A stretch of 64,000 bases of DNA from Armatimonadota bacterium (GTDB lineage: Bacteria; Armatimonadota; Fimbriimonadia; Fimbriimonadales; Fimbriimonadaceae), in NCBI GenBank assembly GCA_025360125.1, contig JANYCU010000021.1, forward strand, positions 62,001 through 126,000, given 5' to 3'. A program made the position numbers and the translations under genes. The notes beneath the pieces were generated by a model that was not told where the DNA came from, made no database searches, and was given only the letters and a program-made list of their open reading frames with translations. Shown here in pieces: positions 1 through 20,293 of this stretch. Each line of letters opens with the position of its first letter. The stretch's first letter is position 1.

Positions 1-986
1 TTGAATCAAGCTGTGATGAAACATCTGCAGCTGTTATCCTCGAAAATAAGGTCCTGAGCAACATTATTAGCTCCCAAGTTGCCATGCACGAGCAATGGGG
101 AGGAATCGTTCCTGAGGCCGCCGCTCGTGCTCACATCGAAGCTATTCTTCCCGTTATTCAAACCGCTTTGTCCAAGGCTCACGTTGTTTTGAGTGCGATT
201 CAGGCCCTAGCGGTTACGAGCCGTCCTGGCCTTGTTGGAGCTCTATCGGTCGGGGTAACGACCGCCAAGACTTTGGCCCAAACGTTAGGAGTCCCTTTGC
301 TGGGCGTTGACCATTTAGAGGGTCACCTTTTGGCGTTCCTGGCGGAAAATCTAGACGCCCCGTTGCCGATGCTTTCCTTGCTCGTGTCGGGTGGCCACAG
401 CGAATTAGTCCTTATTCGTGGACTCGGCGACTACCAACTGGTTGGACAAACGCGGGACGATGCGGCAGGAGAAACGTTCGACAAAGGGGCTCGCCTCCTT
501 GGTCTCGGTTACCCAGGCGGTCGCAAAGTTTCTGAACTTGCGGAGACGGGAAATCCAAAGCGCTACGCCCTTCCTCGGGGTCTCGCCAAAGAGCGATACG
601 ACCTCAGTTTTAGTGGCCTCAAAACCGCCATGCTCCGCTTGGTCGAATCAGAAAGTACAAATCTCAATGTTCCTGATGCCTGTGCTTCGTTGCAAGCAGC
701 GATCTGCGATAGTCTCCTAAGTAAGCTCAAAAACGCGGTAGAAGACCTTTCCCCACGTTCCATCGGCCTTTGCGGCGGTGTCGCGGCCAATGCGGAACTC
801 CGCAACCAAGTAATCGCCCTCGGCCAGCGATATGGTCTTCCCGTTCTTATCCCATCCAGTGAATTCTGCACAGATAATGCGGCCATGATCGGCCTAGCTG
901 CGTCCTATCGACTTAACCGAGGCGAACGAAGTGACTTAACCCTCGAAGTCCAGCCGAACTCCAATTTATTTTCTTTGAAGCCTTAG
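1..986 (+). CDS. tsaD: tRNA N6-threonylcarbamoyladenosine transferase TsaD (5' end cut by window edge)
   Basis: Catalytic subunit that moves the threonylcarbamoyl group from threonylcarbamoyl-AMP to A37 of ANN-decoding tRNAs, working in the cytoplasm with TsaB and TsaE. The open frame runs to the window edge (first full codon at base 3), and its opening residues ESSCDETSAAV are the ASKHA-fold N-terminus of TsaD, so only the first few codons are missing. Visible hallmarks are the metal-binding HLEGH motif, SGGHSELVLI, GGVAANAELR and the late CTDNAAM aspartate. The internal ATG at 84 is not the true start. The gene converges on, and overlaps by 4 nt, the recombinase gene on the other strand. 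Identification is secure. Confidence 0.96.
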   Translation, partial: ESSCDETSAAVILENKVLSNIISSQVAMHEQWGGIVPEAAARAHIEAILPVIQTALSKAHVVLSAIQALAVTSRPGLVGALSVGVTTAKTLAQTLGVPLLGVDHLEGHLLAFLAENLDAPLPMLSLLVSGGHSELVLIRGLGDYQLVGQTRDDAAGETFDKGARLLGLGYPGGRKVSELAETGNPKRYALPRGLAKERYDLSFSGLKTAMLRLVESESTNLNVPDACASLQAAICDSLLSKLKNAVEDLSPRSIGLCGGVAANAELRNQVIALGQRYGLPVLIPSSEFCTDNAAMIGLAASYRLNRGERSDLTLEVQPNSNLFSLKP

Positions 987-18323: not shown

Positions 18324-18851
18324 ATGCCAAAGGAGAAATCAAAATGGTGGTTAATCCGAGGACTTTCGTTGACCGCAGGACTCCTCTTTGCCTGCGGTGG
18401 AACCGCACTTTGGCTACGCGCCGATCGCTCCTTCAACTTGATCGGAAAGTACAACGGCCAACTTATTCCATATGGAATGAAGTCCACACGACAAACCGCC
18501 AAGCTAGTAGCGTGAGCAAAGAAGGACAAAAGCTACCTCTGCTTTGAATTCACTGGCGACCCCAAAATAATCAAAGCCGACATTGAGGCTGAACTGAGGG
18601 AGAAGAACTGGACTGTAGACGACAGCGTGGAAGGCTTCTACACCGGAACCGATTTCACGCCAAATATACATAACGGATTTCCCATTCAGGAAATCTCAAA
18701 CATACAAGACTTCGCCTCGTTCGACTATGACTCTAGAGACCTCGACGTCCCTAAAGGAATCACCTGCATCTTCATCGTGATGCGCAAATCAAACTACGCC
18801 GAATTAACCTACCACTGGACTCACCACAACCAAAAGTCACCTGAGAATTAG
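18324..18851 (+). pseudogene. Membrane-anchored hypothetical gene interrupted by an in-frame TGA
   Basis: The frame from ATG 18324 codes for an N-terminal membrane anchor (about residues 9-30) and a short exported part, then meets TGA at 18513-18515. The same frame continues open for another 111 codons (KSYLCFEFTGDPK... to TAG/TAA at 18851), with protein-like composition and no shift. One point change would restore a 175-residue protein. A TTAACT hexamer 6 nt before the ATG fits the local promoter pattern. It could be a recent nonsense mutant, a readthrough gene or a sequencing error. No family is recognised. Confidence 0.6.
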
Positions 18852-18906: not shown

Positions 18907-19416
18907 TCATCGTTCTCCACCAGCTACTTGCACCAACATTCTATCGCCACTAGCAAAGACATTTGCCGCTGAATCCGTCTCGTACACAAATCCGCCTTCG
19001 AGTACCGGCCCCATGAACCGTTTTAGAAACTCCACAACCTGATTTCGAGCTGACGGCTCCAAGGCGAGAATGACCTTTCCGTACCGAATACTCTCGATCC
19101 GCAGCATGTTCATTCCCGGAATAACGTTGATTCCGACGCCAAGTGCCGCCACGATGCTCTGCAATTCCTTGTTCGACAAAACTTCGGGAATCTCCGCCCT
19201 CCGAATGTCCAACTCGATCGGCTTGATTTCTAAAATGGCCTGAGACATGCGATTTCGAGCCTGAACTGCCATATCCGAACTCGCCTGCTCGACAAGAATC
19301 AACTCTGATTCTAAGCCCTTCTCAACGCAATCAACCAAATAACTCATGCCCTGTCTCATTCTATTCGCATTGCCAAATATATCCAAGCCTGGAAGCTTGG
19401 ATGAGAGAAAAATCAA
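18907..19416 (-). CDS. Degenerate GyrB/ParE Toprim-domain-like protein, catalytic residues lost
   Basis: From about residue 27 the 169 aa product follows the GyrB Toprim module in order: LVDC before the metal motif, E43 at the EGDSA position but reading EQASS, then QAILEIKPIELDIRRAEI, LSNKELQSIVAALGVGI, IRYGKVILAL and FVYETDS. The DxDxD metal site of GyrB is absent; residues 118-125 read LALEPSAR. Thus the fold signature persists while the acidic cleavage centre is gone. No ATPase or other gyrase domains accompany it. The nominal start is TTG at 19416; ATG codons at 19359 and 19347 are alternatives and would drop the unaligned N-terminus. It is either a decaying fragment or a repurposed non-catalytic protein. 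Confidence 0.65.
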   Translation of the reverse strand: MIFLSSKLPGLDIFGNANRMRQGMSYLVDCVEKGLESELILVEQASSDMAVQARNRMSQAILEIKPIELDIRRAEIPEVLSNKELQSIVAALGVGINVIPGMNMLRIESIRYGKVILALEPSARNQVVEFLKRFMGPVLEGGFVYETDSAANVFASGDRMLVQVAGGER

Positions 19417-19460: not shown

Positions 19461-19553
19461 ATGATCTCTTCTCTTCTCTGCCTTGCCGCAATCCAAAACC
19501 CGCTGACTCAAGATAGCCATTGCATCTCGATCATCCATGGAACTACGATTTGA
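19461..19553 (+). pseudogene. Truncated duplicate of the penicillin-acylase-family 5' end
   Basis: ATG 19461 opens a 30-codon frame reading MISSLLCLAAIQNPLTQD then a short tail to TGA at 19551. It parallels the start of the intact acylase at 20441 (MISSLLCLLTLQAPLARD) residue by residue to the conserved IHG-T position. The sequence just upstream is also duplicated (GCTAAA-TAC--C before ATGAT), including the -10 hexamer. Its stop overlaps the TTG start of the following lipoprotein gene. It is a relic of a partial gene duplication that still carries promoter and leader. Confidence 0.7.
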
Positions 19554-20293
19554 ATAAACAGTTCAACATTATTATCCCTTGCATACTGGTCCTCGCTTCC
19601 TGCGGCAAGTCATCGCCTCCAAGAGATTTCACGAAAATCGAAATGGTGTCAGTTCCGGCGGGAGAGTTCAAGATGGGAGGCAACGATAATAGGCTTCACA
19701 CCGTCAACCTTGAAGCTTTCTGGATTGGAAAAACCGATATCACGGTGGCCGAATTTAAAGCTTATTGTTCGGCAACACGAGTCGATTTCGCTAAGTTTAA
19801 GGCGCCAGATTGGGGCTGGCGTGATGATCACCCGATGGTGAATGTTTCGTAGCAAGAAGCTCGCGACTATTGCAAATGGGCTGGGGGAGACTTGCCCACC
19901 GAGGCGCAGTGGGAGAAAGCCGCAAGAGGCACTGATGGCCGCGAATTCCCTTGGGGTGACGAGTATGACGCAAATAAGCTATGTTGCTCAAAGAGTCGTT
20001 TTGGCGATGCAAATTCAACTGCTGCGGTTGGGTCATTTCCCGACGGTGCAAGCCCTTACGGTTGTTTGGATATGGCAGGTAACGTCTGGCAATGGTGCCT
20101 TGATATCAAAGTCCCCGACGCTCATCAACCAAAAGGTATTAGGCCGAATTCTGGCGAAAGGCGCGTGACAAAGGGTTCCTCATGGTCAAGCTGGAACGAT
20201 GAGAGCTTCCGTTCTGCAGCGCGGGGCAGCAGTATTCCCACGCTTCGGAGTGACAGAACGGGGTTTCGTCTGGTGCGCTCTTCGTCGCGTTAG
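19550..20293 (+). pseudogene. Formylglycine-generating-enzyme-like (SUMF1) lipoprotein gene with an in-frame TAG
   Basis: A lipoprotein signal (n-region NKQ, hydrophobic stretch, lipobox LASC) is followed by an FGE-sulfatase domain: MVSVPAGEFKMGG, FWIGKTDITVAEF, then [53 protein letters not shown] and a C-terminal GFRLVRS. The TAG at 19850-19852 sits exactly where the family has the conserved Trp of VSWxxA, so a single TGG-to-TAG change explains it. Both halves are otherwise intact and in frame. TTG 19550 is chosen because GGAA lies 7 nt upstream and it gives a proper signal peptide. FGE-like lipoproteins often lack sulfatase-activating Cys residues, so function was uncertain even before the stop. 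Confidence 0.78.

Follow-up and report, generated by a model that had tools for sequence, protein, structure and literature searches.

A stand-alone GyrB Toprim homologue and its surroundings

The stretch of DNA analysed here (64,000 nucleotides; the window) carries on its reverse strand an open reading frame at 18907-19416 that encodes 169 amino acids from a TTG codon. As the relatives described below start at or near the position equivalent to Met24, translation probably begins at the in-frame ATG (19345-19347), which would leave 18907-19347 as the probable coding part and 146 amino acids as the product; the 23 residues upstream of Met24 have no counterpart in the relatives. At either length the protein begins at the Toprim, and the GHKL ATPase and transducer domains are absent. 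The segments LVDC, QAIL, LSNKELQSIVAALGVGI, RYGK and GGFVY follow one another in GyrB order, in line with the original prediction of a GyrB-like succession from an LADC-like to a GxVY segment, and the Toprim core (residues 27-148; 18973-19338, reverse strand) was delimited by its fold and by alignment to the LADC...GHVY stretch of GyrB. The NCBIfam gyrB entry matched residues 27-145 to GyrB 404-525 (4.8e-15; 55 bits, which does not reach the curated cut-off of 882 bits), the NCBIfam ParE entry matched more weakly, and the top match of a phmmer search of the PDB was DNA gyrase subunit B (4z2c; 7e-11). Pfam assigned none of the six members of the family described below to a Toprim or gyrase family, so the assignment to the Toprim family is based on the NCBIfam and PDB sequence searches. 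The open reading frame encodes a genuine homologue of the GyrB Toprim and lacks the DxDxD site.

The gene lies between two broken reading frames on the forward strand. The first, at 18324-18851 (approximately 175 codons), is interrupted by one in-frame TGA at 18513-18515, has no Pfam match and is a probable pseudogene or assembly error. The second, an FGE-sulfatase-type gene (formylglycine-generating-enzyme-like) at 19520-20293, contains an in-frame TAG at 19850-19852, and the two parts on either side of this codon match positions 4-97 and 112-255 of PF03781. The stops in both frames represent either true mutations or assembly errors. A search for repeats, integron-like ends, a strong promoter and a terminator at the gene returned nothing above chance. 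Comparison of the surroundings of all six copies revealed no gene in common, and none of the copies forms an operon with gyrA or gyrB; a penicillin acylase gene lies near both the window copy and one other (G036), but synteny was rejected as its relative orientation differs. Near the copy in G003, an SMC-like ATPase, small open reading frames and a GmrSD_N and HNH gene stand in a row (L034, 2922-6761) that looks like a defence cluster.

The genome from which the window derives (4.13 Mb in 58 contigs, 98.6% complete) contains one other match to the protein, a normal GyrB of 746 amino acids on another contig that keeps both EGDSA and DADVDG. Across 14 genomes, carriers and non-carriers alike, one GyrA/ParC-type match and one match to the GyrB transducer domain (PF00204) were found in each; carriers have no topoisomerase IV, so that gyrase would be their only possible type IIA partner.

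Relatives and selection in the Fimbriimonadaceae

Searching 101 genomes with the window protein returned true GyrBs and short reading frames in five other genomes (G012, G003, G036, G035 and G002). These five relatives are stand-alone proteins of 140-175 amino acids with the same changes as the window copy, to which they are 23-34% identical, identity among members reaching 63%. Carriers account for 6/85 genomes of the Fimbriimonadaceae and 4/20 of the genus, and include two metagenome-assembled genomes, 'uncultured Armatimonadetes bacterium AM-2014_bin-2629' and 'Fimbriimonas sp. MAG_BO249'. A profile built from the six members found no additional member in the 20 genus or 85 family genomes, and in 291 genomes of the phylum, the family included, no new member appeared among the best matches listed, where a weak one is possible. 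A scan of genome contigs yielded no match with the window protein alone as query, and with three relatives as queries it yielded two known members, GyrB-type genes and, in addition, the locus L093. The annotated matches of a tblastn search of phages and plasmids were all GyrB, ParE or topoisomerase II genes. One match in a viral contig (L094) was rejected as a 17-residue chance match inside an unrelated reading frame. Two features of the wider GyrB set were also observed: the GyrBs of the genus (L002, 940-3180, and others) bear a variable charged insert in the Toprim between GxGI and FDLSKLRY, and three family genomes (G028:C9, G103:C5 and G115:C40) hold a second match besides the usual GyrB, in frames of 814, 646 and 659 amino acids, that is either a second gyrB-like gene or contamination.

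We compared each held-out member with a profile of the other five (66-177 bits) and with a profile of Fimbriimonadaceae GyrB Toprims (34-90 bits). In a tree with 51 GyrBs, the six members fall on one side of a branch with support of 94/87, which is not full, and their own branches are very long, making long-branch attraction possible. Forcing the window copy beside the GyrB of its own genome was 10.7 log units worse and was not rejected (AU test, p 0.155). All six members have Val at column 176, where 51/51 GyrBs have Leu, and all six lack the variable insert of the genus GyrBs. Taken together, these comparisons favour a single origin of the six members over six separate decays and disfavour a recent origin of the window copy from its own GyrB, the held-out profiles being stronger evidence than the tree.

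Selection was assessed on the G012-G003 pair, the sole unsaturated one; the divergence of the window copy is saturated. The two proteins are 63% identical, with dN 0.28, dS 0.81 and dN/dS 0.35 (bootstrap 0.23-0.54), a ratio below all 500 of 500 neutral simulations (median 0.81, minimum 0.43). Without selection, 5.15 stops would be expected at the same divergence, and none was observed (P 0.005). The GyrBs of the same pair gave dN/dS 0.063 versus 0.35 for the Toprim protein, which indicates that the constraint on the latter is real but loose, and the stand-alone protein evolves far faster than GyrB. The remaining pairs gave dN/dS of 0.19-0.23, with dS saturated. None of the signs of a pseudogene (neutral rate, stops, frameshifts, uniform loss) was seen in the G012-G003 pair or in the six-member alignment, and we consider it very probable that the gene encodes a selected protein and not a decaying fragment. 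The family of Toprim relics envisaged in the original prediction is supported by five stand-alone relatives outside the genome of the window and by purifying selection in the G012-G003 pair.

Catalytic motifs, predicted fold and the missing Greek key

Alignment of the window protein with GyrB revealed two replacements at the metal site, both on the reverse strand: EQASS in place of EGDSA (19276-19290), in which the Glu is kept and the Asp lost, and LEPSA(-----)R in place of DADVDGEHIR (19045-19062), in which a five-residue deletion accompanies loss of the DxDxD motif. The expectation that the whole Glu/DxDxD site had been altered holds for the aspartates and DxDxD and fails for the catalytic Glu, which the window copy still carries as the E of EQASS; the five relatives have F, F, C, Q and Q at this position. 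The aspartates are almost entirely lost in the relatives as well, and DxDxD is whole in no member. We scored GyrB-invariant columns in the motifs EGDSAGG, RGKILNVERAR and TDADVDGxHIRTL, the ranges of which were taken from known gyrase biology with the alignment in view. The 31 metal- and DNA-motif columns were 12% retained versus 54% for the 58 others (Mann-Whitney p 3e-7), a pattern not expected of uniform decay. Kept in 6/6 members are the initial L, D, C and K, the first-strand Val, the first R of RDR and QA, as well as the Leu before N, G.G, RY and a late Gly, although residues common to all six could be structural only.

AlphaFold models of the window protein and of the G003 relative (pLDDT 84.7 and 81.6) contain a Toprim core with a final helix and strand of the type IIA kind. 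Structure comparison gave Z of about 16 for the window model and 21 for G003 against gyrase and topoisomerase IV Toprims (range 14-21), the Toprim match that had been expected of a structure search. As gyrase is in the AlphaFold training set and the input alignment contained GyrB rows (for the core only), these models are supportive and not independent proof. In the G003 model, a C-terminal helix overlays the GyrA N-terminal segment of fused crystal constructs; this overlay was discarded because the local pLDDT is 43-70.

In GyrB, the Greek-key domain separates the fifth Toprim strand from the last Toprim helix, and according to a 2024 paper every type IIA topoisomerase has such an insertion in its Toprim (PMC11720246). 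The family Toprims lack this domain and yet keep a trace of the tail that lies behind it, the reading frame passing directly from GHVY to a tail-like segment, such as 'DEFVEHVLNPVTRRLRV' in G003, that resembles the GyrB tail 'eeLeettmapekRrlvqv'. In the window copy, profile and structure alignment placed the remnant ASGDRMLVQV (18925-18954, reverse strand) on the tail of GyrB (..PxxRRLVQV..), a segment usually located behind the Greek-key domain. Tail matches by single sequences were below significance, while the tail profile match scored 20.6 versus at most 15.7 in 300 shuffles (0 of 300 as good); an earlier shuffle test in which 1/200 scores was anomalous, at 129, was replaced by this cleaner repeat. 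The tail of the G003 model forms a helix and a strand with pLDDT above 90, and residues 1-146 of the window model align over their full length with S. aureus GyrB 416..611, with no residues for the Greek-key insert.

Possible roles and comparison with known systems

Taken together, our analysis points to a protein with a Toprim fold and a metal site predicted to be dead, which selection has apparently maintained in some members of a bacterial family whose only type IIA topoisomerase is gyrase. We read the window protein as a domesticated, non-catalytic GyrB Toprim that may act on gyrase through GyrA. A copy of gyrB would have been cut down to its Toprim module; removal of the Greek-key insertion would have allowed the core and tail to close up as a single compact unit; and the motifs that bind metal and DNA would have been lost. 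The dead Toprim may dock on the face of GyrA used by the Toprim of GyrB itself and, unable to cleave DNA, would compete with or space out GyrB, so that gyrase activity would be lowered or protected under some condition, the protein either inhibiting the enzyme or shielding against cleavage. Such a GyrA-docking regulator is the most likely of the roles considered, though short of an even chance. Its more specific form, in which a Greek-key-less, metal-dead Toprim takes the place of GyrB as a dominant-negative-like subunit that tunes or shields the sole type IIA enzyme, is put forward with greater reserve. In crystals, a lone ParE30 Toprim monomer sits on each side of a ParC55 dimer (PMC2893164). 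A free Toprim can therefore occupy the A-subunit site. ParE30, unlike the family Toprims, retains the Greek key. Counting against docking are the patchy distribution, the lack of shared neighbours, the fast evolution and the position of the window gene between broken reading frames.

Reuse of the Toprim fold as a small binding protein in a role unrelated to gyrase would fit the loss of the DNA- and metal-contact loops, which leaves just the core and a few other positions, and the lack of linkage to gyrase genes around the six copies, but we regard it as unlikely, since 6/6 members keep L, D, C, K, R, Q, R-Y and G of GyrB despite their great divergence, which suggests a retained interface. Slightly less likely still is a decoy or protector whose Toprim surface attracts toxins, phage inhibitors or small molecules directed at the GyrB Toprim, sparing the real gyrase. 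Natural Toprim binders do exist, as in the contact of YacG F40 with GyrB F513 (PMC5507300), and rapid evolution, patchy occurrence and changing neighbourhoods, along with the proximity of the G003 copy to a GmrSD-type HNH gene and an SMC-like ATPase, would suit a gene engaged in conflict. However, it is precisely the residues on the quinolone and zoliflodacin side (EGDSA, LRGK) that have disappeared. Among the genes next to the window copy, none was noted as a toxin, inhibitor or phage gene, and viral contigs yielded no close relative of the stand-alone Toprim. A functionless, decaying gyrB fragment left intact by chance, the window copy especially, is improbable: it would accommodate the broken frames on either side of that copy (the FGE gene by a nonsense codon), the patchy presence and the AU test that leaves the grouping with its own GyrB unrejected, but it conflicts with open frames in six genomes, a dN/dS below every neutral simulation, non-uniform loss and the better fit of held-out members to the family profile than to that of GyrB. 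The original prediction had left decay and repurposing side by side; a dead Toprim family under purifying selection is supported, whereas the inhibitor or decoy role suggested there is a conjecture. Decay is disfavoured because the losses cluster where GyrB catalyses cleavage and contacts DNA, the reading frames remain uninterrupted although the members have diverged widely, and removal of the Greek key closes the fold.

If a domesticated Toprim does dock on GyrA, these cells would control their sole type IIA topoisomerase through a catalytically dead version of a domain that the enzyme itself contains. In the open-access literature, to which our search was confined, nothing relevant on stand-alone GyrB-Toprims, inactive Toprim paralogues or Fimbriimonas gyrase appeared among the results listed, and the terms Toprim, decoy and GyrB homologue led to nothing relevant in a 2024 review (PMC10886550). 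The rare relatives in five further genomes suggest a small protein family, not described before, that may bind and modulate gyrase. The gyrase inhibitors and protectors covered by that review include YacG, GyrI, MurI, Qnr, MfpA, CcdB, the ParE toxin, FicT, TsbT and Igy (PMC10886550). The likeness of the present family to them would lie in the proposed role alone, that of a small protein acting on gyrase; as presented there, those regulators are unrelated to gyrase in origin and descent from a gyrase subunit does not figure among the headings, whereas the family described here is gyrase-derived. With the lone ParE30 on ParC55 the comparison lies in an isolated Toprim that docks an A-type subunit, there with DNA and drug present, although ParE30 is a catalytic, engineered fragment (PMC2893164). 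The family resembles the GyrB/ParE Toprim in segment order, predicted fold and the helix and strand of the tail, and differs from it in standing alone, without the ATPase and transducer domains, DxDxD, EGDSA or the Greek key. Like the laboratory Greek-key deletion GyrB27-A56(GKdel) of S. aureus (PMC11720246), it joins the Toprim core to the tail, while being natural, unfused and non-catalytic, and as a natural Greek-key deletion it would be useful for testing the role of the Greek-key domain.
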